Source: Farysia itapuensis (taxonomy: Eukaryota > Basidiomycota > Ustilaginomycetes > Ustilaginales > Ustilaginaceae). Taken from it: a DNA stretch of 64,000 nucleotides. The translations under genes and the position numbers were made by a program. Below the pieces are notes generated by a model. It ran no database searches. It worked only from the letters and a program-made list of their open reading frames with translations, and was not told where the DNA came from. Positions 13,690 through 48,575 of this stretch are shown here, piece after piece (the first letter of the stretch is position 1; every line of letters starts with the position of its first letter). The stretch lies in assembly GCA_023212645.1 (NCBI GenBank), contig JALBYC010000010.1, positions 1 through 64,000 of the forward strand. Direction: 5' to 3'.

Positions 13690-15574
13690 TTATCTGAGAA
13701 GCTCGCGAACGGCTCCCCAAGCCGCACGGAAGCCACGCTTTTTCTTCTTGGAAGGATCAGAAAAGGAGGCTGCGGCGAGCTGAGTCTCCTCCTGCGGCTT
13801 GGCGTACAACTCATTCGATAGGTCGACTGCTTCATTCGGGAGAACGCCATCCGAGCCGACGAGAGCCGCAGAAGACGGCCTGTCTTCAGGCTGTCCTGAT
13901 TGCTGCAAGGCAGTCGGACAATACGGCACCGGGTCTTGTCCCAATGTTTGCTGATCGTATGTACGTGACGGTTGCTCCGAATCAGCGTCCGCCTTCTCGG
14001 TCGGCTTCTCGGTCGGCTTCTCGGTCGGCTTCTCGGTCGGCTTCTCTGGTTCTTGGTGAATCTGTGTTTGAACGTTCGGCTGCACTTTGGTGAGGTGTTC
14101 AACCGCGTCAGTCGATGTCGCGGCCACGATACCACGGCTACAATCTCGGACAGACACGGATGATGATGAGGTCAGTTCTTCAGTCGGTATAGCAGCGTTT
14201 GATTTCGGGAAGATGAGGACACAATGAGGTCTGAAGAAGTGCTTCGCTTACTTTTGATCATCCGCGACATGAGTTGCAGCTAGCGCAGTAGCAAGCTCGT
14301 CCGTCTCATCTGACCTGCTTGCCGCAGCTACTGGTTGTTTGGATGTTGATTCATGGTCCGAATCTTGCTCTCCCTCGCCGTCTGTCGACTCCTCATCTTC
14401 GTCTTCTCCGTCCGGATCCCTACAGATCGAGTTTGGAGAGCGTCAGTATCGAGCATATGTCCGCCAACAGCAGTCTACTTACATTTCGTCGAGTTCGTCC
14501 AATGCATGTTCATGTTTGTGGAAAGCAAGCGCCGTCTTGATGTTTTCGATGCATTCATCGTCTTCGTCAGCCCAGTTGCCGTTGATCTCGAGTCGTGTCA
14601 GATTTGGCAAGTGTGCACGGATGGCGCCGCCAAGTTCGGCAAGTGCTTTGCGGTCCAAGTCACAGTATTGGACCTGAATTGTTTCGAGTAATGGGTTTGA
14701 TCCATTACTTAAAGCACCGAACACAAGTGCACCTCCTCTTGGTTTCAGCAAGCAGTCAGATAAGTTCAAGGTCTTGAGCCTTGGCCATGAAGCAAGACAC
14801 GCGGCAATAGCTCGAGAACCTCGAACGGTAGCGGTGTTGTCTTGCAGATCCAAGACTTCCAGATCGGCGCATGACGCGAGGCCCTTGCTGATCGCTTCGA
14901 TCCCTTCCATGCGGATTCCGTTTTGAAACATTCGCACTTCCACTAAGCCCCCATGGGCAGCGTAGGCTTTGGCCCACACTGGAGCTGAGCCGTTCTCAAG
15001 GCGATTCCGGCCGCAGATTACAGTGCGCAAGTTGGACCTCAGGCCCTTTGACTTTAGAATTTCGGCTGCTTCCAGCAAAGCCTCGGCCACAATGGTGCCT
15101 CCAGTTACACCGAGTCCATTGTTGTTGAGCTTTAGGACCGAGAAGCTGTGGTTCTTTTTCAGAAAGTTGACCATGGGTTCGGCTGAACGGCCACCGAACG
15201 CATTGTCGGAGAGATTGAGCTCGACGAGGGCGGTGTTGTCAATCAATGCATCACAAAGAGCTCGGAGTGCATCCGGAATTTCCGAGATCAGTCGACCAGT
15301 GAAGATGTCGGCAAAGTCGGCAATCTGAGAGCACAATTGGTCAACGTCGAGCAGCTGGACACTTGCAAGCGTAACGTACCTTCAAAGTGCCCTTTGTCTT
15401 CAAGACCTCGGCCAACGCTTGGCATGCTTCGACGCCAAAGGTGTTGCCTCCTAGGTGGATTTCATGCAGATCAGTGATCTGATCCAGCTCATCCAAATGC
15501 GGCTGAATATCAGCTTTGGAATTGAGCTTGAGATTCCTGCCCACAAGCGAATACACGTTGGATGGGTTGGTCAT
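13690..15574 (-). CDS. RNA1: Ran GTPase-activating protein (RanGAP/Rna1), four exons
   Basis: Exons on the minus strand are 15574-15380, 15324-14483, 14419-14252 and 14137-13690, totalling 1653 nt and 550 aa. The introns are 55, 63 and 114 bp, each with a GTA(A/C)G donor and a branch-like TGAC. The protein begins MTNPSNVYSLVGRNLKLNSK and carries leucine-rich repeats typical of RanGAP (LHEIHLGGNTFGVEACQALAEVL; ALVELNLSDNAFGGRSAEPM; LEVLDLQDNTATVRGSRAIA; LTRLEINGNWADEDDECI). An acidic segment (DPDGEDEDEESTDGEGEQD) follows. Cytoplasmic RanGAP stimulates Ran-GTP hydrolysis in nuclear transport. Exons 3-4 add an unusual tail of about 200 residues with four EKPT units and a basic end (KKKKRGFRAAWGAVRELL). 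The LRR part is secure; the exon 3/4 join rests on phase and splice signals. Confidence 0.88.
13997..14044. repeat. 12-bp tandem repeat, four copies (EKPT codons)
   Basis: Four perfect consecutive copies of TCGGTCGGCTTC, read on the minus strand as GAAGCCGACCGA and encoding the EKPT repeat of the RanGAP tail. Perfect identity at DNA level suggests recent expansion. Confidence 0.85.
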
Positions 15575-19324: not shown

Positions 19325-22300
19325 TCAGATCTGGAGGAGCTGGGAGATGGTACCACCAGTAGAGGAGCCGTCTGCGGACTGAGCACCACCTTGGACCGAG
19401 GAGAGACCATTGCCCTGAACAACCTTGTCGTTGGTCTCGTCAGAGTAACTGGATCCGCCCATGGAGTTAGCGTTGCTCAGCTGCGAGTTGTACGAAGAGG
19501 GAGCCGATCGTCGAGCGTTCTGCGAAGCGCCCTGCTTGTTGGCCTGCGAAGCTTCGGTGTTCTGAGTGATCTTGCCACCAACAGCTACGTTACCTTGGGG
19601 AGTACTCCAAGAGTCGGGAGCGTGGTGCCAGAAGTACCCAGAGGCGACGTAAGGACCCGCGTTGGCGCTGGCATCGGCGTTGCTGCTCGTATCCTGCGAG
19701 TTGCCCTGAACCTGAGTCTGAATCTGTCGTCGGTGATGGGCATTGGACGCTTGCGAAGCGCCCTGCTTGTCTTGCTGGTTGCTGTCGCTGTCTTGGATGA
19801 TAGTACCGGCATGAGCAGAAGAGTCAATGCTGGTTGGGCCAGTGGTCCAGCCTCCCGAAATGTAGACGGGTCCACCCGTGGCGTCAGCGGAAGCAGTCTG
19901 CTTGGTACCTTGCTGAGCGAGCTGACCCTGGGCTTGCAGATCTCGTCCGAAGATGTTGGAGAACTGCTGACTCAAAGACTGAGTGGCGCTCTGCTGACCG
20001 TCTTGAGCAGCTTTTCCGTTCTGGTTGACAGCACCGCCCTGAGCACCGTTGCTAACGTAGGCACCGCCGTTGCCGCCAGAGATGTAGGCAGATCCTCCCT
20101 CGGCGTTGGCCTGACCGTTCTGCTTGATACCCTGGTTGATACCTTGGTCAAGACCCTGGTATTGTCGTCGCCAGTAAGCACCTTCGCCACGGAACTGGTT
20201 CTCCTGCTGCTGCGAGAGATCCTGAGTGGCGGACTGAGCACCGTATTGCTGGCCGCTAGCTCCTTGGTTGACAGTGCCAGCGGTGGCGTCACCGTTGACG
20301 TATGCAGGTCCATTGTTGCCGACGATAGCAGTAGAACCGCCTTTGGCGTTGGCCCCGCCGGTCTGTTCAATGCCCTGACCAATACCCTGACCGAGACCTT
20401 GGAATTGCCGACCGAAGAGCTGCTGCAGACCTTGAGTAATGCTGCCACCCTGGCCGTTGTTCTCGGCGCCTTGGGAACCACCAGTAGTGACGGAGTTGCC
20501 GGTGCCAGATACGACGGGTCGGTTGTTCTGGTTCTGGAAGCTGGAGCCACCGTAGCCGTTAGCGCTGGCGCCCTGAGCACCGAATGCAGACTCGTACTGG
20601 CGCTTGCCAAGACCAAGCATCTGAGAGAGGCTCTGGTCGACCGATCCACCTGTTCCATCGTTCTCACCGAATTGAGATCCGCCAGTGGTGACCGAGTTGC
20701 CGGCGCCAGAAACCACAGGCTTGTTGGTCTGGCCTTGGAACGAAGAGCCACCGAAACCATCAGCGCTGCCCTTCTGCGAACCGGAAGCAAAGAGTCCCTG
20801 TCGCTTGCTAAGGCCGAGCTTCTGAGCGAGTGACTGCTGAATCTGGCCTCCCATGCCGTTGTCTTCGGCACTCTGAGCTCCGCCAGCAGTCAAAGAGTTG
20901 CCGGCGCCCGAGAGAACGGGAGTGTTGGTCTGTCCCTGAGCGGACTGGCCACCGAAGCCATCAGCGCTACCCTTCTGGGACCCGGAAGCAAAAAGGCCCT
21001 GTCGCTTGCTAAGACCAAGCTTCTGAGCAAGAGATTGCTGGATATCGCCTCCTGAGCCGTTGTTCTCGGAGCTCTGAGCGCCTCCAGCGGTGAGAGAGTC
21101 GCCAGCGCCAGAAAGAACAGGGGAGTTGGTCTGGTCCTGGGAGGACTCCCCACCAAAACCGTCAGCAGATGCTCCCTGATTGCCCTGAGCGAAGAGCTGT
21201 CGTCGGCCGAAGCTACTGCCCCCAAGGGATTGCAGCTGAGAAAGGGTCTGCTGGATCGAGCCACCTTGGCCGTTGTTTTCGGCACCCTGAGCTCCACCAG
21301 TGGTCAGGGAGTTACCGGTACCGGAGAGCACAGGCTTGTTGGTCTGGCCTTGAGCAGAGTCACCACCATAGCCGTTGGCTGAGGCGCCCTGCTTGCCCTG
21401 AGAGAAGAGCTGTCGACCTTGAAGGCTCTGGAGGAGCTTCTGAGTGATCTCCCCACCCTGGCCATCGTTCTGAGCCTGCTGAGCACCACCAGCAGTCAAA
21501 GAGTTACCAGCTCCAGAGAGAACGGGAGCATTGTATTGTCCCTGCTGGGAAGAGCCGCCAAAGCCATCAGCGGATGCTCCCTGCTTGCCCTCGGCACCAA
21601 GGAATTGTCGGCCTTGAAGCTTCTGCAGGAATTGCTGAGTAATGTCACCACCCTGGCCATCGTTCTGAGCCTGCTGAGCACCACCAGCGGTGACTGAGTT
21701 GCCAGCTCCAGAAACCACGGGAGCATTGGTCTGTCCCTGTTCGGAGAACCCACCATAGCCATTAGCGCTGGCACCCTGCTTGCCTTGTGCGCTTTCGAAG
21801 AGGTTGCTCAGCTGACGAGCGCTCAGCTTCTGCGTAAGGTCCTGGAGAACTTCGCCGCCAGTGCCGTCATTAGTCGCCGACTGGTTTCCACCTGTACCGA
21901 CAGTGTTACCAGATCCAGAGACGACGGGCTTGTTGATCTGATATTGGCTGGAGCTGCCACCAGATCCATCAGCGGAACCGACTTGCTCGCCAACAGCAGA
22001 AAGAATAGGCAGTCCTCGCTTTCCGTTGCTTTGATTACCCGTACCAGCAATTTGGGCATTGGCGTTGTTGTCGTTAAGGATAGGAGCGCTGATAACATCA
22101 CCGGTCTTGTGTTTGTCATCGCTGCTAGACCATTGTCCTTTGTGACCGTCACTGTTCTTCTGATTACCAGTACCAAGGATTTGGAGGTTGGCATCGTTAC
22201 CATTCAGGATTGGCAGGCTGATGACGTCGCCGGTAGATCCGCCTCGCTTATTCTTCTGGTTGCCAGTTCCGGCGATTTGGGTATTGACCTTGTTGCCGTT

Positions 22301-22645
22301 AAGAGCATCGATCGAAATGAGATCACCAGTTTTGCCTCCAGACGACTTGTGACCGTGGTGTCCTGAAGCCGGAGCAGCAGGTGCAGGGGAGCCTGAAGAG
22401 GGGTGACTAGGCTCGCTGCCGTGGTAGACAACGCTCAGGCCATCGTCCTTGGAAATCTTGACACCTTGAGTGTTCTGCTGGTTAGAGCCAGACTTCTGGG
22501 AAACATTGTTGCCGCTAGCCTGCTGGGTGGTACCCTGAGCATTGGACTGGGTGACATCCCGAGAGCTGACAGGGGCTGCCGAAGCAATGTTGGAAATGGC
22601 AACAGAGCCAACAACAAAGGCGGTGAATCCAGATGAGAACTTCAT
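19325..22645 (-). CDS. secreted repetitive Kex2-type precursor, Rep1 repellent-like
   Basis: A 1106-aa intronless protein with a clear signal peptide (MKFSSGFTAFVVGSVAISNI, cleavage probably near ASA/AP). The mature part is very rich in Gly, Gln, Ser, Asn and Ala and is made of repeats. There are three short A units (about residues 108-219, core DVIS-PILN-N-AN-QI-GTGNQ), eight B units of 64-71 aa (about 220-760, core QGASADGFGG, PVLSGAGNSLTAGGAQ, NDGQGG) and four looser C units (about 761-1054). Most units end in a basic site followed by Gln (SKRQ, GRRQ, WRRQ, HRRQ), as in precursors processed by the Golgi protease Kex2. The architecture resembles Ustilago maydis Rep1, whose peptides coat aerial hyphae. 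That link is by architecture, not alignment. Confidence 0.8.
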   Translation of the reverse strand: MKFSSGFTAFVVGSVAISNIASAAPVSSRDVTQSNAQGTTQQASGNNVSQKSGSNQQNTQGVKISKDDGLSVVYHGSEPSHPSSGSPAPAAPASGHHGHKSSGGKTGDLISIDALNGNKVNTQIAGTGNQKNKRGGSTGDVISLPILNGNDANLQILGTGNQKNSDGHKGQWSSSDDKHKTGDVISAPILNDNNANAQIAGTGNQSNGKRGLPILSAVGEQVGSADGSGGSSSQYQINKPVVSGSGNTVGTGGNQSATNDGTGGEVLQDLTQKLSARQLSNLFESAQGKQGASANGYGGFSEQGQTNAPVVSGAGNSVTAGGAQQAQNDGQGGDITQQFLQKLQGRQFLGAEGKQGASADGFGGSSQQGQYNAPVLSGAGNSLTAGGAQQAQNDGQGGEITQKLLQSLQGRQLFSQGKQGASANGYGGDSAQGQTNKPVLSGTGNSLTTGGAQGAENNGQGGSIQQTLSQLQSLGGSSFGRRQLFAQGNQGASADGFGGESSQDQTNSPVLSGAGDSLTAGGAQSSENNGSGGDIQQSLAQKLGLSKRQGLFASGSQKGSADGFGGQSAQGQTNTPVLSGAGNSLTAGGAQSAEDNGMGGQIQQSLAQKLGLSKRQGLFASGSQKGSADGFGGSSFQGQTNKPVVSGAGNSVTTGGSQFGENDGTGGSVDQSLSQMLGLGKRQYESAFGAQGASANGYGGSSFQNQNNRPVVSGTGNSVTTGGSQGAENNGQGGSITQGLQQLFGRQFQGLGQGIGQGIEQTGGANAKGGSTAIVGNNGPAYVNGDATAGTVNQGASGQQYGAQSATQDLSQQQENQFRGEGAYWRRQYQGLDQGINQGIKQNGQANAEGGSAYISGGNGGAYVSNGAQGGAVNQNGKAAQDGQQSATQSLSQQFSNIFGRDLQAQGQLAQQGTKQTASADATGGPVYISGGWTTGPTSIDSSAHAGTIIQDSDSNQQDKQGASQASNAHHRRQIQTQVQGNSQDTSSNADASANAGPYVASGYFWHHAPDSWSTPQGNVAVGGKITQNTEASQANKQGASQNARRSAPSSYNSQLSNANSMGGSSYSDETNDKVVQGNGLSSVQGGAQSADGSSTGGTISQLLQI
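20366..21988 (-). repeat. eight tandem B-type repeats in the Rep1-like gene
   Basis: Approximate bounds. There are eight diverged units of roughly 195-215 bp, each coding GAS(A/N)(D/N)G(F/Y)GG ... VSGAGNS(L/V)T(A/T)GG(A/S)Q ... GGxIxQxL ... (K/R/G)RQ. Units 5 and 6 are the most alike and share the ending LAQKLGLSKRQGLFASGSQ, which suggests a recent duplication. Flanking this block are three shorter A units (about 21989-22324) and four C units (about 19484-20365). Confidence 0.85.
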
Positions 22646-23884
22646 AATGATGGGTGGTCAAGAAGTCGAGAAGATTAGAGAGTCAAGGGCTGGTTGGGTA
22701 GATTAGAGAGAAGGGATTAAAGGGGCCTAGTAAGATAAAGTCCGGACAGGTAGTAGCACCAGAGAAATGTGTTGATGTGATGAGGAAAGGGAAGAGGGCA
22801 GATGGAATGTGATGATTATATAGCTTTCAAGTGCCTGCTGGAGGCTTCAGTGGAGATACCGGAAAACCACAGCGAAAACGTCTTGACTCTGTCGAAAAAG
22901 GGTTTGAGCGCAGCACACCAAGAGTGATGTGCTGCTTAGGGCTGCATCTTGTCCCATTCAGTTCTGCTGTAGTGGGCCACGATGGGCGAACACTCGAGAG
23001 GCAGAGACGCAAATCGGTGACAACGAGCATTGGTTCGCATCAATTTCTACTAGTGTGGCGATTTGATCACGGCAAGCGATGGGAACCGTTTAGACGTGGG
23101 AACAACCGCTAAGTGTCACAGCTGATTGATCGACTTCTGGATCACTACAAGTGCCGTGAACGAGCATGGGTGTTCGCATAGACCGAGCCGATGGGAGCGC
23201 GTTCAAAACAGCCGATGGGAAGACGAGTTGTGCGATTCGGCTGAGGGAAGGAGCAGGACGGCTAAGCAGGCTAGACAGAGGGAGAACAAGAGTCTTGACA
23301 CGCTTGCGTAAAGGACTGTATGAGTGGAATAGTTTCAGCTCTGTGTGACGGCGATTTTGGGCGGGCAATGGTTAGAAGCAGTGCGGATGTCATTTTGGCA
23401 TACGCCTGTCACTCATCTTGCATGAAGCGATCTTGAACGCCGGTGGATCGATCCAGGAAATTGAACTCTCCGGACCTGTCAAAAATCGGCTAAATTAGCG
23501 AGCTGGGTGTTGGACTCGATTTTCTGGAAGTGATCATCGGTGACTTTTCTTAGTAGCCGAGATGAGCGACGACGTCAACGCCAAACGAGCCTCGGAAGCA
23601 CGCACTTTGCCACAGTAAACACACAATAGCCATCAGTCAGGCTGCAGTCAGCCTGTCAAGCTGAACTGCTTACAGAAGTTTTCGACGAGCAATGGTAGTC
23701 TCGACGACCTTTTTAGTGGGGTCAACCGCCGTAATTGCCTCAATCACAGTGCCGCCCCTACTTCGTCCTCTTCTTAGTTTCCCTACCAACATCTTCCCTC
23801 TTCCGACTGAAACCTCTCTCTCTTTCTTTCTCATTTGTATCGTCAGCTTCTTCCTTCCCTTCACCATTGACTCTATCGAACACA
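22646..23884. other. divergent intergenic region between two secreted-protein genes
   Basis: About 1.2 kb without a convincing gene. On the Rep1-like side there is a CT-rich leader (minus strand) and a TATATAA at 22816-22822. On the other side, 23755-23880 is a pyrimidine-rich leader upstream of the next start codon. A large upstream region fits strongly regulated genes. Confidence 0.55.
22816..22822 (-). promoter_or_regulatory. TATA box of the Rep1-like gene
   Basis: TATATAA read on the minus strand, about 170 bp upstream of the start codon at 22645. The CT-rich sequence between them would be the transcript leader. Confidence 0.5.
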
Positions 23885-24418
23885 ATGAAATCAGCAAAGG
23901 CTTTCCTGGCCGTCACGGTCATAGTCGCCAGCCAGACATTGATCTCAGCTCTTCCAGTACCGTCTCGATCGCTGATGGTCGTCGATCAGGTTACTGTGCG
24001 AGGACTGGGAGATGCTCCACTCATCGTGTTGGGCAATTATCAGACCGGAGACGACAACCAAAGTGGCAACGGAAACACTCAGACGAGCGACTCGACCACA
24101 AACGTCAGCGGAAATGCAAACTCTGTCACTTCTAACTCTGACGGCACCACTCAAAACCAGACTCAGAATGCCGATCAGACCAACAGCTCGTCTTCGGCCA
24201 ACAGCGACCAGACTCAATCCCAGGGTGTGCCGACGGATCCGGACAGCGGCTCAGCCATTCCTCAATCGTCTGGGGGTCAAAACGTCGAGCAGAGCAACAG
24301 CCAAACCACTACTCAGAATTCAGGTGGCCAATCCTCGTCTCAAAGCAGTCTTTCGCAGCAGGGGAACACTCAGTCTTCGTCTCAATACCTGCAAAGGTGT
24401 GTAGGCTCAACTGCTTGA
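23885..24418 (+). CDS. small secreted Gln/Ser/Asn-rich protein, repellent-cluster member
   Basis: A 177-aa protein starting at 23885 (MKSAKAFLAVTVIVASQTL), an evident signal peptide followed by SALPVPSR, the same pattern as its two neighbours. The mature part is almost entirely Gln, Ser, Asn, Thr and Gly with no cysteine until near the end. The segment GDAPLIVLGN-containing DDNQSGNGNTQ resembles the A units of the Rep1-like protein. It has no B units and no obvious Kex2 site apart from VRG. The C terminus (YLQRCVGSTA) may be altered if an intron with a GTGTGT donor near 24397 is used. I cannot decide this from sequence. Function unknown; probably cell wall or surface. Confidence 0.65.
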   Translation: MKSAKAFLAVTVIVASQTLISALPVPSRSLMVVDQVTVRGLGDAPLIVLGNYQTGDDNQSGNGNTQTSDSTTNVSGNANSVTSNSDGTTQNQTQNADQTNSSSSANSDQTQSQGVPTDPDSGSAIPQSSGGQNVEQSNSQTTTQNSGGQSSSQSSLSQQGNTQSSSQYLQRCVGSTA

Positions 24419-25183
24419 TATTGCTAAGAGCGGTCCGTTACTTCTCGTCAGTCTCATTCAAATTTCTATTATTTCGCTTGCTCGCACCTTCACCTCGTCT
24501 TCAGTCATGTTTAGGAATTACCAGCAGATCTGCAGTTTCTCGTGTGGTGAAGTGGGCTTTCATACAGTACTACGGGTGGTCAGAGACTCTTCAGTGCTAT
24601 CAAGGAAGAAGAACGCTTTGTGATCGAACAGTCTCTCAGCGCTGTTTACGAAGTCTGTTGTCAATCTTTCATAGTATCGAGCGCTATGTCAAGGACTTGG
24701 GCAGTGGACTGAGCTATGCTTAACACCGTGCGGGTATCTGTACTTGGTCATCGAGCGACTGAGAGGCGCGTTCTGAGTGTCGATTCAAATGCCGGAATAT
24801 CTTCTTCACACGATCTCGCATGGAGTCATCTCGCTTCGATTCATAGTGCGAAGCAACCAGAGCCGCCAACAAGATTCGGTTGTTCTGACATGTTCTCATG
24901 CACTGTGTGCCGAGGTCTATTGTCCTCTGATACCAGAGTGACTCGTCGCTGCTGCCAAGCGAGAACCAGCGGCTTGATCGCGATTGCGATGCAGGAAATG
25001 ACTAGTGACCGAATGCGTTCATGTGACGTAGCCTCCTCATCGACAAAGCAGCATTGTCTCTTCGCCACAGCAGCAGAGACCGCACCCCTAAGAAGCAGTA
25101 GTAAAATCTTATAAATAAGCTGGAGGAACGACCTCGGACAGTTCTGGACCTTACCTACCTTTATTTTGAACCCGGCTTTCACT
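24419..25183. other. intergenic region within the secreted-protein cluster
   Basis: About 765 bp. The only signal recognised is a TATA box at 25110-25118 serving the downstream gene. Confidence 0.5.
25110..25118 (+). promoter_or_regulatory. TATA box of the third repellent-like gene
   Basis: TATAAATAA, ending 65 bp before the start codon at 25184, a good spacing for a core promoter with a short leader. Confidence 0.55.
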
Positions 25184-25834
25184 ATGAAGTACGCTACCTT
25201 TTCTACCATGTCTGTCCTGGCTCTCGCAGCTCTTACCAGCTCTGCACCTCTTCCGTCTGGCTCGCCCGTCACTGAGAGCAACTCTCAGGGCAGCACTGGT
25301 CAAAGCCAGCAAACTTCGAACTCTCAAGGAGTACTTGGTAGCCAGACTGGCTCCGCTGGCGGCTACGGTGGCAGCGCCACTGCAACTCAAGATAACGACT
25401 ATTCTCAAGTACAGCCTGGCAACCAAGTCACCAACGGAGGAACTCAATCTGCCCAGCTTCAGGGACAAGCGGGTTCTGTCTTGCAGAACGTGCAGTCATT
25501 GTTTGGTCGTCAAGTCCAAGATGCCAGTGCTGAGGGATACCGAGGCACTTCTACTGCGACTCAGGACAACGACGGTAGTCAAGTAGCTCCTGGTAATCAA
25601 GTTTCTCTTGGCGGCAGCCAAACCTCCTCTGACCAGGGACTTTCAGGCACCATCGATCAGAACAACAGTCTGCTGAGACGTCAGGTTCACGATGACATTG
25701 CAAGTATCCGACGTATTCCTGTACAGTTTGCTGGCACTGATGCCAGCACAAAGGGGCACTGCATGCCTCGCTACGCCGGTCTCGGTTTGCAACAGCCTTC
25801 GGGAACTTCACCTTGCAGCCATAGCGATGCCTAA
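25184..25834 (+). CDS. secreted protein with two Rep1-type repeats
   Basis: A 216-aa protein starting at 25184. The signal peptide (MKYATFSTMSVLALAALTSS) is followed by APLPSGSPVTESNSQGST, closely like the Rep1-like N terminus (VTQSNAQGTT). Two repeat units follow: GSAGGYGGSATATQDND ending SLFGRQ, and DASAEGYRGTSTATQDND ending SLLRRQ. Both contain a GNQV-x3-GG-x-Q core and match B units of the large neighbour. It is a two-unit relative of the 1106-aa precursor, probably processed by Kex2 at LLRRQ and perhaps at FGRQ. The last 45 residues contain Cys and look unlike the repeats. They might be a distinct mature peptide or a degraded reading frame. Confidence 0.7.
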   Translation: MKYATFSTMSVLALAALTSSAPLPSGSPVTESNSQGSTGQSQQTSNSQGVLGSQTGSAGGYGGSATATQDNDYSQVQPGNQVTNGGTQSAQLQGQAGSVLQNVQSLFGRQVQDASAEGYRGTSTATQDNDGSQVAPGNQVSLGGSQTSSDQGLSGTIDQNNSLLRRQVHDDIASIRRIPVQFAGTDASTKGHCMPRYAGLGLQQPSGTSPCSHSDA

Positions 25835-41832: not shown

Positions 41833-43445
41833 TCAAGCGAAGCTTTTAGACTTTGAGACGTCCAACGAAGCGGGCTCGATTTGCTCGGTCTCGTCTGTTG
41901 AGATAAATGCGTCCGGCAAGCGTGTAAGTGATGCCCTGGCAGCAATGGATCCCATCACGTTGTCCATCTGTTCTAGCGTCAACAGCTTGGTTTCGGGCCA
42001 GAAAAAGTAGACAACAATCTACGTGCAAAACCAAGAGAATCAGCATGAGAGCTATGAAGGCCGATATGAAGCCATATACTTACAAATGTGATCGTGTTGA
42101 TACCCATCATCAACCAGTACAGGCGGTAATCGAGTGCGGCACTGAGAACTGGCCACAGTTGATTGACCACGATGACAGCGATGAACAATCCGAGAAAGCT
42201 GATTGAGATGCCTAGATCTCGAAGAGCTTGCGGCCAGATTTCGGATGATATGACTATGCAAGCCGATCCCAGAGCACCGGCGTATGAGCACTGGATCGCA
42301 AAGATACAGATCACCATCCACACCGCAGCACCTTTGTTCTGCGCCTGTGGCCATCGTTCGAACAAAGCACCTAGGAAGAGGTAGCCGAGCCATGCAACAC
42401 CGATGCCGAAGAGCATGATTTTCTTGCGACCCCATCGATCAAACAAGAACAGAGGCACGAAACATGCAATCAGCTGTAGACTACCCCCCAGGCCATTGAT
42501 AATCAAACTCAGCTGCTTTCCGCCGAGGTTCAGACTTTCGAAGACGGTGATACCATAGAGCATAAGCGCAGCGACGCCAGTCAATTGGGCGAAGATGCAA
42601 CTGCCAGCGCCAATAAGTATACGCCTCCATACGTTGCGTTGGCGCAGTAGCTGAAGAGGTGAGCCATAGATGGCAGCGGCTCGCTGAGCCATCACGTCGG
42701 ACTGCATAGAAGTCCATTCGCTTTCCAACTTGCTGTCGTTGGAAGGAAGACGACGCAAAGCCATGTGATTAGCGCGAGCCAACTTTACTTTCGGATCGTC
42801 CATGTTTGTGGGATCATCTGAGCGATTGAGCAATTGGCGAGGTGATTCGGGCGACAAGAGCGCCACGATGACCAAGACGATGCCAAACGACATCTGAACA
42901 GCGGTCAGAACTCTCCACGAATTGCCTCCGCCAAGACTTGCGGTGCCCAAGGAGATCCAGAAGGCAATGAACACGCCGACTTGATAAGAGACTTGGACCA
43001 TGCCAATTGCAGTACCTCTGACTTCTGCCGAGGCGATTTCCGAAGTCCAAGCGGCAAAAGTGCCTTGACAGAGCGAAACGCCGATTCCGCAAAGAACCCG
43101 ACCAGCTAAAAGCATGCCTTCATTGCGTGCCCCGGCGACCAAAGACGCGCCCGCCATGAGGATGAAAGCGCCTATCACCATCGTCCACCTTCGACCAAGT
43201 TTCTTGCCCAAGTAGACGAGAGGGCCGAGATAGGCGATGCAATTTCCCACGTTGATAAGGGCTGCAAACGCGCCTTGCATTGCAGGCCCGAAGTTGAACT
43301 CATCGAGGAAGCTTTGATCGGCAATGACTGCCGCAGCGGAGGCGGTGTCATAGCCGGAGAAAATGTTGGCGATAGCGAGTCCTGCACAGATCGACAAGGT
43401 CTTGGTATTACCTGACCACCTCGGACGGGGGATTATGTCGATCAT
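41833..43445 (-). CDS. MFS sugar transporter
   Basis: Two exons on the minus strand, 43445-42084 and 42018-41833, with a 65-bp intron (GTAAGT...CGTAG), giving 515 aa. Signatures: GYDTASAAAVIAD in TM1, LGRRWTMVIGAFILM (loop 2-3), AGRVLCGIGVSL, SPESPRQLL after TM6, FDRWGRKKIMLFG, and in exon 2 FFWPETKLLTLEQMD. This last is the PETKG-type sugar-porter motif, and it confirms the splice join because reading through the intron loses it. There are twelve hydrophobic segments. The family imports hexoses, pentoses or small oligosaccharides by proton symport. It is divergent from a GH127-type glycosidase (529 bp between starts), so an arabinose-containing sugar is a plausible substrate (inference). Confidence 0.9.
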
Positions 43446-43974
43446 TGCAAAGGAGGATCGGAACGGGTGATAGCAGGCGGGGTTCCAAAGTGCGAGACAG
43501 CTCTATATGTATGTTGCGTGGAGCTCCGCAACATCGCAAAACTCGATGGCAAATCTCCAGTGAGTGCTCAGGGACCAGAAGTGCGGCAATTCAAGTTCGG
43601 GGATATCGGACAAAGCACCGCATGGAAGGTGACGTTGGCATAGCACAGATTTGCGGCTGCTGTCTTGGCAGCCAGAGTGCAAGTATGCAAGTGGCAAAGC
43701 AGAAAGACGGATGTCCGATACCAAGATTTCCGGGGTAAAAGATTGCCGACAAGCTCGCACGCAGAGTATACCGAATCCCCAGAATTGGGCCCTCCAAACA
43801 TATGGCGTGTGGTGCATTTCGCATCTCTTGAATTTGGACCCTTGGAACTGGGGCCTCGGTAACCTGTTCGGGAATCTCTGAGAGGTTCTTCCAATTGCAA
43901 CATCATGGCCGCACAATCCAGCCTTGCTCTTCACATCCACCGTCTGCCCCTGTCTTCTCAATCTTTCCGCGACC
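43446..43974. promoter_or_regulatory. divergent promoter of sugar transporter and GH127 gene
   Basis: 529 bp shared by the two genes. It contains three matches to the CreA/Mig1 repressor consensus SYGGRG on the plus strand: GCGGGG at 43477, CCGGGG at 43730 and CTGGGG at 43848. About two matches on both strands are expected by chance in this length, so this is only weak support for glucose repression. No TATA box was recognised. Confidence 0.4.
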
Positions 43975-45957
43975 ATGGCTGGCTATTACCCCCAAGAAAA
44001 ATTCGTTAACGCCAGGCTTGAGCCAGGCTCGTTCTGGGAGACGTGGCAAGCTACTTCTCGAAAAGTGACCATTCCAGTCCAGCTGGACTTGCTCAAAACG
44101 ACAGGCCGATACGATGCGTTCAACCTGAAGATGATTGACTACTACAAGAAGCCACCTACCATCTGGCCTGTGCCGGACCATCTCTTCTGGGAGTCGGATG
44201 TGGCTAAGTGGATCGAAGGTGTTTGCTACAACCTGCAGCTCAAGCCTGACGAAAAGCTTCAACAGCATGTGACTTATCTTGTCGATCTCATTGAGAAGGC
44301 ACAGCAAGAAGATGGCTATCTCAACATTCACTTTGTTGTCGTTGAGCCCGAAAAGCGATGGTCGAATCTGCGAGACTTACATGAGCTCTACAATGCTGGT
44401 CACTTGATTGAAGCTGCTTTGGCTCACCAGGCACAAACTGGCTCGGACCAATTCGTCGACGTCATGCTGCGTTTTGTCGAGTACTGCTGCACTGTGTTTG
44501 GTAGAGCTGATGGGAAGCTCAAAGGCTACCCCGGTCACCCTGAAATCGAATTAGCCCTCTTGCGATTGTACAGCCGCACCAAGCATGTCAAAAGCCTCGA
44601 GCTCGTGTCCTACTTTTTGACAGAGCGAGGACAGAACGAAGGTCAGTTCTACAAGGAAGAGCAGGCCAAGCGTGGCGAACACCCACACTGTATCCCAGCC
44701 ATGATGCCAAAGCCTTACAGCTTCTGGTACATGCAGGCTCACAGACCTATCGCGCAGCAGGACACGATCGAGGGCCACTCTGTGCGAGCAATGTACCTGT
44801 TGACTGCAGTCGCGGACCTCGTGAGCTCATCCGAAGCAGAATCTCACGTCTCCAAGCAAGAGCTCAACAACCTTGCTCAGGCTGTCGAAAGACTGTGGAG
44901 TAACATGGTTCAGCAAAAGATGTACGTCACCGGCGGTATCGGTAGCATTAAACAGTGGGAAGGCTTTAGCATTCCATATGCTCTTCCTATCAGCACAGAC
45001 GAAGGAGGCTGTTACACCGAGACTTGCGCTGGTATCGGTCTTCTCATGATGGCTGACCGCCTTCTGTACGAGCGTCTCGACGGAAGTGTAGCTGACGTGG
45101 CCGAGCGTGTTCTCTTCAACTCCAGCATCACTACCGGTATGTCCGTGGACGGAAAGGCATTCACGTACGTCAACCAGCTTGCTAGCTCGAAGGAAGAACC
45201 ATGCCAGCGCTTCGACTGGTTCGAATGCGCTTGCTGTCCCCCCAATGTCATGCGCACGTTCGGCTGTCTTCAAGGCTACTTCTTCGGCAATCTGCGTCAG
45301 TCGCCCAGAGATCTTGCCATTCACCAATTGTTTGCCGGATCAATCGACTTCCAAGGCAACAGCGTCACCCTCGCTACCAAGTACCCTCTTGAAGGCTACG
45401 TCGACGTTGATGTCAGGCAGATTGCACCCGGATCTACCATCTGGCTCCGAGTTCCTGGTTGGGCCAAGTCCAGCTTCCAATTTTCGGGACCGAGCGAGCT
45501 GCAGAACGGCTACCTTGCCATCAAGAGCGTTGGAAAGTACACACTGGATCTCGCGATGGAGCCCCGGCTTTTGCACTCGCATCCCGACGTCGGACCCAGC
45601 CGCCTTACCGTAGCATATGGTCCCTTGATTTACTGTGTCGAAGATGTTGACAATGTTTGGATTGATCAGCTGCCAGAAGCAGAACAGCATTTCAAACACC
45701 TCTGCCTTGACGCGAAGACGAGATTTGAGCTGGCTCCTCACAACAACATCATTCTTCTCAAGGCAAGCAAAGCTGGTTACAACCTCAACTTGTCCGGACA
45801 GGCAGGGTTCGCTTCCGCTTTCGAGGCTCAAGACCTGCCTGTCTACTACGAAGAAGCCGGCGAGGGCCGTGACCTTACCTTCATTCCGTACTATTACAGA
45901 TGCAACCGCCCTGAGACCAAGGGTCGAATGAGGACATCTCTTCGAGCCCTCTCATAA
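43975..45957 (+). CDS. GH127/DUF1680 glycoside hydrolase, probable beta-L-arabinofuranosidase
   Basis: A 660-aa intronless protein, start at 43975 in good context (GACCATGGCT). It has the GH127 (alpha/alpha)6 barrel pattern: FWESDVAKWIEGVCYNLQL, QQEDGYLNIHF, HELYNAGHLIEAALAH, GYPGHPEIELALLRLY, FWYMQAHRPIAQQDTIEGHSVRAMYL. The catalytic zinc-thiolate set is visible as Glu349 and Cys351 in CYTETCAG, with Cys420/Cys421 in FECACCPPNVMRTFG. In the characterised bacterial enzyme a Cys of this set is the nucleophile. C-terminal beta domains follow. There is no signal peptide, so it should act in the cytosol on imported short arabinosides. Its divergent neighbour is a sugar transporter. Confidence 0.9.
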   Translation: MAGYYPQEKFVNARLEPGSFWETWQATSRKVTIPVQLDLLKTTGRYDAFNLKMIDYYKKPPTIWPVPDHLFWESDVAKWIEGVCYNLQLKPDEKLQQHVTYLVDLIEKAQQEDGYLNIHFVVVEPEKRWSNLRDLHELYNAGHLIEAALAHQAQTGSDQFVDVMLRFVEYCCTVFGRADGKLKGYPGHPEIELALLRLYSRTKHVKSLELVSYFLTERGQNEGQFYKEEQAKRGEHPHCIPAMMPKPYSFWYMQAHRPIAQQDTIEGHSVRAMYLLTAVADLVSSSEAESHVSKQELNNLAQAVERLWSNMVQQKMYVTGGIGSIKQWEGFSIPYALPISTDEGGCYTETCAGIGLLMMADRLLYERLDGSVADVAERVLFNSSITTGMSVDGKAFTYVNQLASSKEEPCQRFDWFECACCPPNVMRTFGCLQGYFFGNLRQSPRDLAIHQLFAGSIDFQGNSVTLATKYPLEGYVDVDVRQIAPGSTIWLRVPGWAKSSFQFSGPSELQNGYLAIKSVGKYTLDLAMEPRLLHSHPDVGPSRLTVAYGPLIYCVEDVDNVWIDQLPEAEQHFKHLCLDAKTRFELAPHNNIILLKASKAGYNLNLSGQAGFASAFEAQDLPVYYEEAGEGRDLTFIPYYYRCNRPETKGRMRTSLRALS

Positions 45958-46083
45958 TATTCGCACAGCTTTTCAGCATCTTGACTTTCAATTTCTTTAT
46001 GACGGCATGCCCAATTATGTACGTGTATATTTCCGTGTCCCAGCGGACCAGCACAAGCTTGAGATGAAGTAGCGAGGGTTGAT

Positions 46084-48210
46084 TTACAAGGCTTGTACCA
46101 CTCCAGGTTGAGCTGGAGGCTTGGGGGCGACGTATCTGAACGAGGGCTTTCCCGTGAAGCGGAGGAGCAGATAGCCGGCGAGAGTGAATACAACCGCTAT
46201 GGCAGCGAGAAAGCCGGCATTCTCGGCTATAGTAAATGCGCTGAGGCCATATTGAGAGATAACGTCTTGACCGGTTCGATAGCATTGGGAGGAATTTGCG
46301 TCACACGAGAAGTCAATGTGTCGGAACTCATTCTGAGCTAGAGCTGAGTAAGTGAAGGTGATGGGTGAGATCCAGTGGAGCCAGATGAACCACGGCGGTA
46401 TCGATGATAGGGGGAGTAGATTACCGCCGAATAGAAGGAACACGACATTGATGAGCGGTGCGAAGATGTTGGCAGCTTCAATACTGGGAGAGCCAGAACC
46501 GATTGCGAGACCTAGGCCAATGGACGTACCGACTTGAAGGAGGTTGATGCCCAGCCAGATGAAGAAATTGCCGGCAGTCTGTCGTAGTCCTATCATCCAG
46601 TATACTACGATGTAGAACAATGCTCTTTGCAGCATCTGATTAGGCACTTCTGTGACCACTTTGCTGACGTAAAAGGACGACGTCCGGTACATGCCGGCTG
46701 ACCTTTCCCTGAGCATGATACTGCGTTGAAGCGGAAAGATGGCGAGGATGGGGAAAAGTGTGGCGAAACTTGCATTAACAGGAACGATGAATAGGGCACC
46801 GATCCTTCCCAGCGCACCACCTTGATCGTTGTTGAGTCGGAAGAAGGCAAAGCCGATGATGATCAGAAGGATAAAGTTTTGGCCGAAACTAGCCACAACG
46901 ATTGTTGGGTCTTTAAGGATCAAGGTGAAGTTCCGATGCGTAAGCGCCGCGAGTTCATGAAACCAGGAATTAGGCCAAGTGCCAGCAATATGAGTGGCAT
47001 CGCTGGTCTTGGACTGGCCTCGACGCAGTTGAGGTGGGAACTCGGGTTTCTGAGAGTGTGCGAGGCCTGTCTGGGATGCCAGAAAGGCTGTCCCACCCTC
47101 CCTCCACGATGACAGAAGTTCACGAACACGTGTCTCGGCTTCGTTTGTCTTCTCGTAATTTTCAGCAATCGATATGTAGAAATCTGCGGGATTGACTCCC
47201 TCGGGCGGTTGGTGGGAGAGTGTTGAGAACCAGGCTGGGGCAAGTGTGGGAGGGCCCGAGTAGTACACTTGTCCGCGTGTTAGTAGAACCACACGATCAA
47301 AATTTTTGAAGATACTCCAAGATGGTTGATGGATCGTCATGAGGGTGTATAGATCTCTCTCGCGTGTAATCTCTTTGAGATTGGTGACGAGACTCAGCGC
47401 AGCGTAGGCATCGAGGCCCGAAGTGGGCTCGTCGAGTAAAAGCACACTGACGTCCGAGACCAGCTCCGTGGCTACGGCTACTCGCTTCCTTTCTCCTCCC
47501 GAAATACCCCGCTTGTTTGGACCTCCGATAAGAGTATCAACACACTTCTCCAGGCGTAGCATTGCAATGCTGTCCTGTACGCGTTGCCTCCGTTCCTCTT
47601 TGCTGTAGATGCGACTGGGCAAGCGCAAGTCGGCTGAATACTGGAGAGTTTCTTGGACAGTGAGTGAAGAGAACATGAGATCGTCCTGCTCGACGAAACC
47701 AGTGAGACGTTTCCACGTTGCCGGGTCACGCTCCTTTGACTGGAACACCACTTGACCACCGATTTCGGCTGACTTGTCTAGACGCGCTGATAGAATGGAA
47801 AGCAGAGAGGTTTTGCCTGCACCAGATGCGCCCAGCACAGCGACCATCTCACCACGCTTAACATGCCCACTTACGCCATTTAGTACGCGTCTTCTGATGG
47901 GGTTAAGGAGCGGAAGATGAGGAAATGTGTCAATTTGTTCGGCTAAGACATCACTGCTGTCGGACGACAGGGTGCCATGTTCAGCCTCATTCGGGCTCAG
48001 ATCCGTCTTCTCTTTGACAGAATTGCCAAGCTCGGTCGAGCTTGTCTTTGCTTTCGCCCTGGCCGCTTTGCGCTGCTTTTTGGCCAGCAGTACGTCGTAT
48101 GTGATGTTGCTCCAAGAGAAGTAGTTGAACCCGGTGACATTGTCCTCCGTCGTGGTGGATCGTTGCGTGAGAGCGGCAACAGGTGTCACTGATGAAGAGG
48201 ACGACTGCAT
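46084..48210 (-). CDS. ABCG-type half ABC transporter
   Basis: A 708-aa protein, start at 48210 (MQSSSSSVTPV). The nucleotide-binding domain is N-terminal: Walker A GASGAGKTS (about residue 125), signature ISGGERKRVAVA, Walker B VSVLLLDEPTSGLDA. The C-terminal half has six hydrophobic segments (IVVASFGQNFILLIIIGFAFF; LFIVPVNASFATLFPILAIF; FAPLINVVFLLFGGNLLPLSSIPPWF; FLAAIAVVFTLAGYLLLRF). Domain order NBD-TMD and single-copy halves define the White/ABCG family, which exports lipids, sterols or drugs as dimers. The substrate is unknown. Its 3' end faces that of the GH127 gene. Confidence 0.93.
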   Translation of the reverse strand: MQSSSSSVTPVAALTQRSTTTEDNVTGFNYFSWSNITYDVLLAKKQRKAARAKAKTSSTELGNSVKEKTDLSPNEAEHGTLSSDSSDVLAEQIDTFPHLPLLNPIRRRVLNGVSGHVKRGEMVAVLGASGAGKTSLLSILSARLDKSAEIGGQVVFQSKERDPATWKRLTGFVEQDDLMFSSLTVQETLQYSADLRLPSRIYSKEERRQRVQDSIAMLRLEKCVDTLIGGPNKRGISGGERKRVAVATELVSDVSVLLLDEPTSGLDAYAALSLVTNLKEITRERDLYTLMTIHQPSWSIFKNFDRVVLLTRGQVYYSGPPTLAPAWFSTLSHQPPEGVNPADFYISIAENYEKTNEAETRVRELLSSWREGGTAFLASQTGLAHSQKPEFPPQLRRGQSKTSDATHIAGTWPNSWFHELAALTHRNFTLILKDPTIVVASFGQNFILLIIIGFAFFRLNNDQGGALGRIGALFIVPVNASFATLFPILAIFPLQRSIMLRERSAGMYRTSSFYVSKVVTEVPNQMLQRALFYIVVYWMIGLRQTAGNFFIWLGINLLQVGTSIGLGLAIGSGSPSIEAANIFAPLINVVFLLFGGNLLPLSSIPPWFIWLHWISPITFTYSALAQNEFRHIDFSCDANSSQCYRTGQDVISQYGLSAFTIAENAGFLAAIAVVFTLAGYLLLRFTGKPSFRYVAPKPPAQPGVVQAL

Positions 48211-48575
48211 TGTGATGGTCGTGACATAACAACTGGGCCCCTTTGACTGAATTAAGTAGAATGCGAGCAAGGACTGTTGGTGGAAGTGGTTGCCTAATCT
48301 TGCTCGTCCGCGGAACACGAAACTGTCACAGTGCGCCAAGAATTGATACGCGAGGCTCCGAGGCCCGCGGAAAGACACGTTGCTGCACTCAATTCCCATT
48401 TTAGACTCTCATTCACAATCGGATTCGGATCTCGTTCGTCCCTCGGGACGAAAACGACCCTGCACCACACATCCCTCACGCTCAACAATCATTCATCGAA
48501 ATATGTATTGTCCATTGCCCCTGGCGATGAAGCGCACGCAATCTAGAGGCAACGCTGGGCATGCAAGTAAAGTGC
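48211..48575. other. intergenic region, ABCG promoter
   Basis: About 365 bp between the ABCG start and the stop of the next minus-strand gene. No element was recognised. Confidence 0.45.

Follow-up and report, generated by a model that had tools for sequence, protein, structure and literature searches.

This study concerns three neighbouring genes for secreted repeat proteins in the first 64,000 nucleotides of contig JALBYC010000010.1 of Farysia itapuensis (assembly GCA_023212645.1). This stretch, here called the window, opens contig 2 of a genome of 13.7 Mb in 53 contigs, which was searched as a whole. The three open reading frames (ORFs) had been picked out in an earlier examination of the letters alone (the sequence-only reading), and their lengths of 1106, 177 and 216 aa and their positions were confirmed. 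All three proteins begin with a hydrophobic stretch that, read by eye, is a putative signal peptide. The locus comprises the following features, with homologs counted at E up to 0.001 (for gene 1, the best 7995 candidates, i.e. those with most shared words, were scored):

19325..22645, minus strand: gene 1 (P0001), secreted repeat protein, 1106 aa (ORF and at least 13 homologs)
23885..24418, plus strand: gene 2 (P0002), secreted Q/S/N/T-rich protein, 177 aa (ORF and 2 homologs)
25184..25834, plus strand: gene 3 (P0003), secreted protein, 216 aa (ORF and 8 homologs)
22646..23884, no strand: divergent intergenic region of genes 1 and 2, 1239 bases, with TATATAA located 177 bases upstream of the ATG of gene 1

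The three genes are genuine, and the sequence-only reading had overlooked how their parts are related. Judged by the anatomy of repeat units and glutamine ladders, gene 1 contains two kinds of putative layer, an approximately 60-residue unit B and a glutamine-ladder (Q-ladder) module; gene 3 has only the B kind and gene 2 only the ladder. The description of the genes as a tandem family is appropriate for genes 2 and 3 but not for gene 1, which diverges from gene 2 across the 1239 bases between them.

Modules shared among the three proteins

Homology of genes 1 and 3 beyond mere composition, through unit B, is well supported by sequence comparison. A composition-adjusted BLASTP alignment gave E 5e-8, the local score of 200 exceeded the shuffle maximum of 123 (0 of 500 shuffles), and profile-profile comparison returned 97.7%. 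The gene 3 unit profile scored 44.2 bits against gene 1 (shuffle maximum 16.0 in 300), and the first 45 residues of the two proteins scored 62 against a shuffle mean of 29 (0 of 1000). Composition as the whole cause of this similarity is rejected on BLASTP, the shuffles and the unit B profile. Among the best candidates scored in the whole genome, gene 1 matched only itself and gene 3. As had been noted earlier, repeat units ending in RQ are present in both. The gene 3 protein is built as follows:

25337..25504, plus strand: first B unit of gene 3, residues 52-107 (44.5 bits with a profile of a single gene 1 repeat; none of 500 shuffles exceeded 20.6)
25517..25663, plus strand: gene 3 unit B copy 2, residues 112-160 (32.8 bits)
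25715..25831, plus strand: C-terminal tail of gene 3, residues 178-216, containing two Cys and the motif PxYxGLG (from the sequence)

Within the tail, PxY is kept in six of the eight relatives and GLG in four, the rest of the tail having diverged. Two of these relatives, P0019 and P0020, carry database names (a translation factor subunit, a ubiquitin ligase) to which their sequences do not point and which are probably annotation errors. A search of PDB by sequence gave gene 3 one weak match (E 0.016), regarded as chance.

Genes 1 and 2 show no similarity beyond chance over their whole length (43 of 500 shuffles reach the score), and the score of their first 45 residues is reached by one shuffle in 1000. 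The C-terminal 33-residue module of gene 2 matches the module directly after the gene 1 signal peptide, and it is fairly well supported, at the level of sequence profiles, that the two proteins have this Q-ladder module in common:

24278..24385, plus strand: gene 2 Q-ladder module, residues 132-167, Gln at 132, 136, 140, 144, 153, 159, 163 and 167 (family profile and Gln spacing)

A profile built on the gene 1 family over residues 27-64, from 11 of the 12 aligned members (P0012 is short there), scored 41.1 bits against gene 2 residues 131-163 (shuffle maximum 21.2, 0 of 1000), and 45.1 and 38.4 bits against the gene 2 homologs P0025 and P0026 (0 of 1000 each). Among the 879 ORFs of the window only genes 1 and 2 exceed 20 bits. 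When every Gln was fixed and the other residues were permuted in blocks of 12, shuffles of gene 2 reached at most 39.3 bits (0 of 1000), and P0025 and P0026 were reached by none and one of 1000, respectively; over two versions of the Gln-fixed shuffle gene 2 and P0025 remained at 0 of 1000 in both, and P0026 at 0 and 1. The same profile does not match gene 3 (7.2 bits, equalled by 108 of 1000 shuffles). The motif VT(Q/E)SN(A/S)QG(T/S)T, which had been read as common to genes 1 and 3, is present as a string, just as SAAPVSSR, SALPVPSR and SAPLPSGS are present as quoted at the three pro-starts, but it does not rise above chance in gene 3; the true counterpart of this gene 1 region is gene 2 residues 131-163, which the sequence-only reading had missed. 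Seven further relatives, of gene 3 or distantly of gene 1, were compared with the profile: P0020 (14.2 bits, 1 of 1000 shuffles), P0018 (5 of 1000) and P0017 (12 of 1000) match weakly, and the scores of P0015, P0016, P0019 and P0024 were reached by 75 to 237 of 1000.

The Gln spacing can also be compared, with shuffle figures that are overstated because the pattern was found after looking, the profile test being independent of the pattern. Each of the three C units of gene 1 reads Q-x3-Q-x3-Q-x3-Q, a gap of 33-35, then Q-x5-Q-x3-Q. Such long-loop ladders occur three times in eight of the 12 gene 1 family members and twice in the other four; among 5000 shuffles of the gene 1 region at least one arose in 17 and three in none. 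The N-terminal module of gene 1 corresponds to the inner six Gln with the gap shortened to 9 (8 in P0010, P0013 and P0014). Gene 2 and both its homologs have Q-x3-Q-x3-Q-x3-Q, 9, Q-x5-Q-x3-Q-x3-Q (0 of 50000 shuffles each); the six-Gln form alone appeared in 18, 6 and 11 of 20000 shuffles, and an extra instance lies near gene 1 position 957. None of nine gene 3 family proteins contains a Gln ladder. When the genome was searched with the two modules as single sequences, the query alone was recovered each time, so either this type of search is too weak or the link is visible only by profile.

Genes 2 and 3 show no similarity beyond chance, either over the whole length (68 of 500 shuffles) or in the first 45 residues (62 of 1000), and a similar pro-start, which had been claimed for all three proteins, is thus unsupported for this pair, although it stands for genes 1 and 3 and, at one shuffle in 1000, for genes 1 and 2. 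Alignment within the trio beyond composition is accordingly found for genes 1 and 3, for the module only in genes 1 and 2, and not for genes 2 and 3. The more general proposal of clustered, related secreted repeat proteins is borne out by unit B in genes 1 and 3 and by the Q-ladder module in genes 1 and 2.

The two homologs of gene 2 are 76% and 72% identical to it, and the rest of its own genome holds no other match. The protein was tried and rejected as a unit-B protein (12.5 bits, reached by 6 of 500 shuffles; 3.2 bits and 99 of 300 with a gene-3-type profile) and as a unit-C protein (10.6 bits, 22 of 500). NCBIfam gave one sub-threshold match (E 0.019). Residues 29-64 (window 23969-24076) form a TVRGLGDxPL.VLGNYQ block in which 28 of 36 positions are invariant in the three known sequences.

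Architecture, relatives and surroundings of gene 1

Gene 1 consists, in order, of a signal peptide, the Q-ladder module, a spacer, three A units, eight B units, three C units with a diverged fourth, and a unit-B-like cap:

22574..22645, minus strand: putative signal peptide, residues about 1-24 (read by eye)
22454..22567, minus strand: Q-ladder module, residues 27-64, Gln at 33, 37, 41, 50, 56 and 60 (family profile; predicted beta)
22016..22336, minus strand: three A units of 28-31 aa with linkers, residues 104-134, 136-164 and 180-207 (56-69 bits each)
20411..21997, minus strand: eight B units of 58-68 aa, residues 217-745 (86-125 bits each)
19727..20407, minus strand: three C units of 69-81 aa, each with a long-loop Gln ladder, residues 747-973 (profile and Gln spacing)
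19511..19726, minus strand: diverged fourth C unit, residues 974-1045 (12.5 bits only)
19328..19510, minus strand: unit-B-like cap at the C-terminus, residues 1046-1106 (the unit B profile scores 31.1 bits)

The borders of the B units are K/R-R-Q or G/A-R-Q. Across the 12 family members, unit C is present in three copies in ten, four in one and two in one, B-type units (cap counted) number 4 to 10 and A units 0 to 5; these numbers are a count and not a test, because the profiles derive from the same family. Two further relatives, P0015 and P0016, have only B units at the thresholds used. In the relatives P0016 and P0024, short near-identical KR-bounded peptides of about 22-25 residues also stand beside the B units; repeats of this kind, which are typical of Kex2-processed peptides, are absent from the window genes.

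Little apart from the unit C repeats is predicted with confidence in structure. The C-unit cores (10-residue block means 51-92) are predicted to adopt a FapC-like fold, and the N-terminal Q-ladder module is predicted to be beta (best 10-residue block with a mean predicted local distance difference test score, pLDDT, of 71). The closest solved fold to the predicted C repeats is that of Pseudomonas FapC; Escherichia coli CsgA, at rank 9 (E 3.5) in the Foldseek search, took second place on realignment, and both scores are modest. With the gene 1 profile as query, a sequence search of PDB at E 0.01 matched no chain, and no Fap-specific model was run. It is moderately supported by these models that the best-folded repeats may stack somewhat like bacterial surface amyloid fibres. 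Pfam gave nothing above its cut-off for any of the three genes, and one gene 1 match below it (E 0.042).

All named homologs (seven of 13 for gene 1, four of eight for gene 3) come from smuts and their kin (Sporisorium, Ustilago, Pseudozyma, Thecaphora). The tagged gene 1 relatives are EX895_001558, UHOD_06221, NDA11_003932, NDA16_002784, PFL1_01514 and ACQY0O_005162; EX895_001558, UHOD_06221, PFL1_01514 and the gene 3 relative PFL1_01512 were looked for by tag and not found in the literature searched. U. loliicola has NDA16_002784 (gene 1 type) and NDA16_002782 (gene 3 type), both on a contig of 638281 bases, and P. flocculosa has PFL1_01514 and PFL1_01512 of the same respective types, both with a longest contig of 1270782 bases. 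By the numbering, one gene intervenes in each (NDA16_002783, PFL1_01513), as in the window, which places the relatives of genes 1 and 3 at a distance of two locus tags in both species. Furthermore, two proteins, P0017 of the gene 3 type and P0025 of the gene 2 type, each come from a 3529-base contig, which suggests that the gene 2/gene 3 pair is adjacent in a near relative. The conserved surroundings that the sequence-only reading had sought around Rep1, the repellent precursor of Ustilago maydis, were found in part: by locus tags the relatives of genes 1 and 3 are near each other in the two species, but gene 1 lies off the Rep1 locus.

Upstream of gene 3, TATAAATAA is located 74 bases before the ATG. 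The Prf1-type pheromone response element ACAAAGGGA does not occur in the locus, including the intergenic region of genes 1 and 2, and the single occurrence elsewhere in the window (58928) is no more than chance would give. The neighbouring genes are of housekeeping type according to Pfam (an elongation factor 2-like GTPase, a RhoGEF, a Cwc25-like splicing factor and the second-largest subunit of RNA polymerase). Elsewhere in the window, genes for a sugar transporter, a GH127 beta-L-arabinofuranosidase-like protein and an ABC transporter adjoin at 41979-48399, perhaps as an arabinose-use cluster, and a perfect 12-base tandem repeat of 4.5 copies occupies 13993-14046.

A candidate surface-fibre system and its alternatives

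The account that we tentatively favour is that the locus encodes a surface-fibre system of smuts, separate from Rep1 and of similar principle, with gene 1 as the large subunit and genes 2 and 3 as minor ones; the function of the trio as a surface fibre is an inference. The large subunit would be a secreted chain of repeat units (three of type A, eight of B and three to four of C) with a single Q-ladder module, and the cores of these repeats would form cross-beta layers. Kexin would probably cut it at the Arg junctions between units, and the pieces may stack into amyloid-like fibres on the hypha. As the short homolog of gene 1, gene 3 would contribute two B layers and its C-terminal tail, and gene 2 a Q-ladder layer of the gene 1 kind; both would most likely serve to initiate, cap or anchor the fibre.

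Gene 1 has nine [KR]R sites and 21 Arg, ten of them followed by Gln, and six of these ten RQ junctions are dibasic. Together with a kexin-like gene of 988 aa on contig 51 (judged by its P domain and by reading the sequence), these junctions make cleavage of gene 1 plausible. The earlier idea of a Kex2-processed precursor does not fit all three proteins, since gene 2 has no dibasic [KR]R site in its 177 aa and gene 3 only two. All eight homologs of gene 3 carry K/R-R between the B units, a position at which gene 3 itself reads GRQ, and the pair of RR sites in the gene 3 tail is not conserved in its two closest homologs.

The same residues can be read otherwise, i.e. gene 1 and its partners may stay uncut as an elastic or adhesive wall coat in which the junction Arg are structural. 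Arg 682, 746, 827, 901 and 1046 are invariant across the 12 relatives, yet the preceding residue is basic in only 8, 6, 6, 5 and 7 of them, respectively; Arg 709, which falls inside a unit, is also invariant, and gene 2 offers no dibasic site for cutting. We nevertheless regard an uncut coat as unlikely, if worth serious consideration: the Arg of gene 1 stand mostly at unit borders, with Gln next in 10 of 21, and the genome has its kexin-like gene.

It is improbable that gene 2 is an unrelated low-complexity secreted protein, which resembles gene 1 by composition only and leaves a family of genes 1 and 3. Besides the lack of whole-length similarity, such a view could draw on the profile-profile match of genes 1 and 2, which is only 55% probable over 35 columns, and on the reverse profile (gene 2 and its two homologs), which fails in four of the 12 gene 1 family members (P0011, reached by 93 of 300 shuffles; P0012, a fragment without the N-terminus, 197; P0013, 69; P0014, 29) and is equalled by one shuffle of 300 in P0009. 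In the remaining seven, however, it beats all 300 shuffles, at the N-terminal module; the forward match withstands the Gln-fixed shuffles, and the exact Gln spacing is common to both proteins.

The presence of the family in Pseudozyma flocculosa too, a non-pathogenic mildew antagonist, counts against a host-directed role, in which the products would act in infection as secreted peptides or as a hyphal shield, as proposed for Rsp3 and other repetitive secreted proteins. We hold this to be more improbable still, even though the named matches all belong to smuts and their kin and Rsp3 is described as secreted, repetitive and located at the surface of hyphae (PMC5923269).

Rep1 itself is a protein of 652 aa with 12 Kex2-processed repeats of 34-55 aa, and the Rep1 peptides reportedly assemble into amyloid-like fibrils at the surface (PMC4617103). 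Gene 1 is likewise secreted and built of repeats, with dibasic sites between some units, and its named matches are all from smuts and kin. It differs in having three unit classes, none of them of 34-55 aa between Kex2 sites (A 28-31, B 58-68, C 69-81 aa, so that B and C units, at 58-81 aa, are longer), in Arg junctions that are often not dibasic, and in its location at another locus with two partner genes alongside. In the available part of the orthology table of PMC7409079, REP1 is UMAG_03924 / UHOR_05948 / EX895_001361 and REP4 is UMAG_04517 / EX895_002086, tags that differ from those of the gene 1 relatives EX895_001558 and UHOD_06221; S. graminicola thus carries REP1, REP4 and a gene 1 relative, EX895_001558, under separate tags. 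None of the at least 13 gene 1 matches is named repellent, six of 13 being nameless. Gene 1 as the Rep1 ortholog, with small paralogs beside the known repellent locus, was therefore rejected by locus tags and is very improbable, although the two proteins may be distantly related. The Rep1-type identity given to gene 1 by the sequence-only reading was not upheld, and as far as that table goes the link holds only in the sense that gene 1 may work like Rep1.

Comparison with other surface systems

The hydrophobin domain has eight Cys; the proteins of genes 1, 2 and 3 have none, one and two. Pfam gave no hydrophobin match at E up to 1, and a hydrophobin search of the genome was also without a match, yet its controls were unmatched too and it is uninformative. 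U. maydis is reported to have repellent peptides in place of hydrophobins, rep1 being well characterised (PMC4102580), and functional amyloid, Ustilago and repellent all occur in one review of hydrophobins (PMC9394342). Kex2-processed repeat proteins (KEPs) have been mined widely (PMC6339444, PMC7329392). Gene 1 resembles them in its putative signal peptide (read by eye), its repeated units and its nine [KR]R sites, but its unit borders are dibasic only in part, and gene 2, which has no dibasic site, lacks the dibasic-bounded repeats that define KEPs.

Compared with the FapC/FapB system (PMC12392863), the trio is similar in that beta layers with conserved Gln are predicted to stack, that units of this type mostly number three, and that a smaller homolog is encoded close by. 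It differs in that secretion is eukaryotic here and that the C repeats have 69-81 aa as against about 35-40 in Fap; the gene 1 profile has no sequence-level PDB match at E 0.01, and the fold match is modest. CsgA of curli is more distant, with repeats of about 20 residues (PMC12392863) and only rank 9 (E 3.5) in Foldseek. A bolder form of the surface-fibre account is that the trio represents an independently evolved, smut-specific eukaryotic analogue of curli/Fap, in which the large subunit would hold two kinds of cross-beta layer and the two small subunits, each with only one of these (gene 3 with B and gene 2 with the Q-ladder), would be nucleator and cap by stacking on matching fibre ends; we consider this doubtful.

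If the surface-fibre account is true, the locus would be a second conserved repeat system with small partners, and smut surfaces would be built by several amyloid-type systems. It would also offer a testable fungal case of the bacterial large-subunit/nucleator design.
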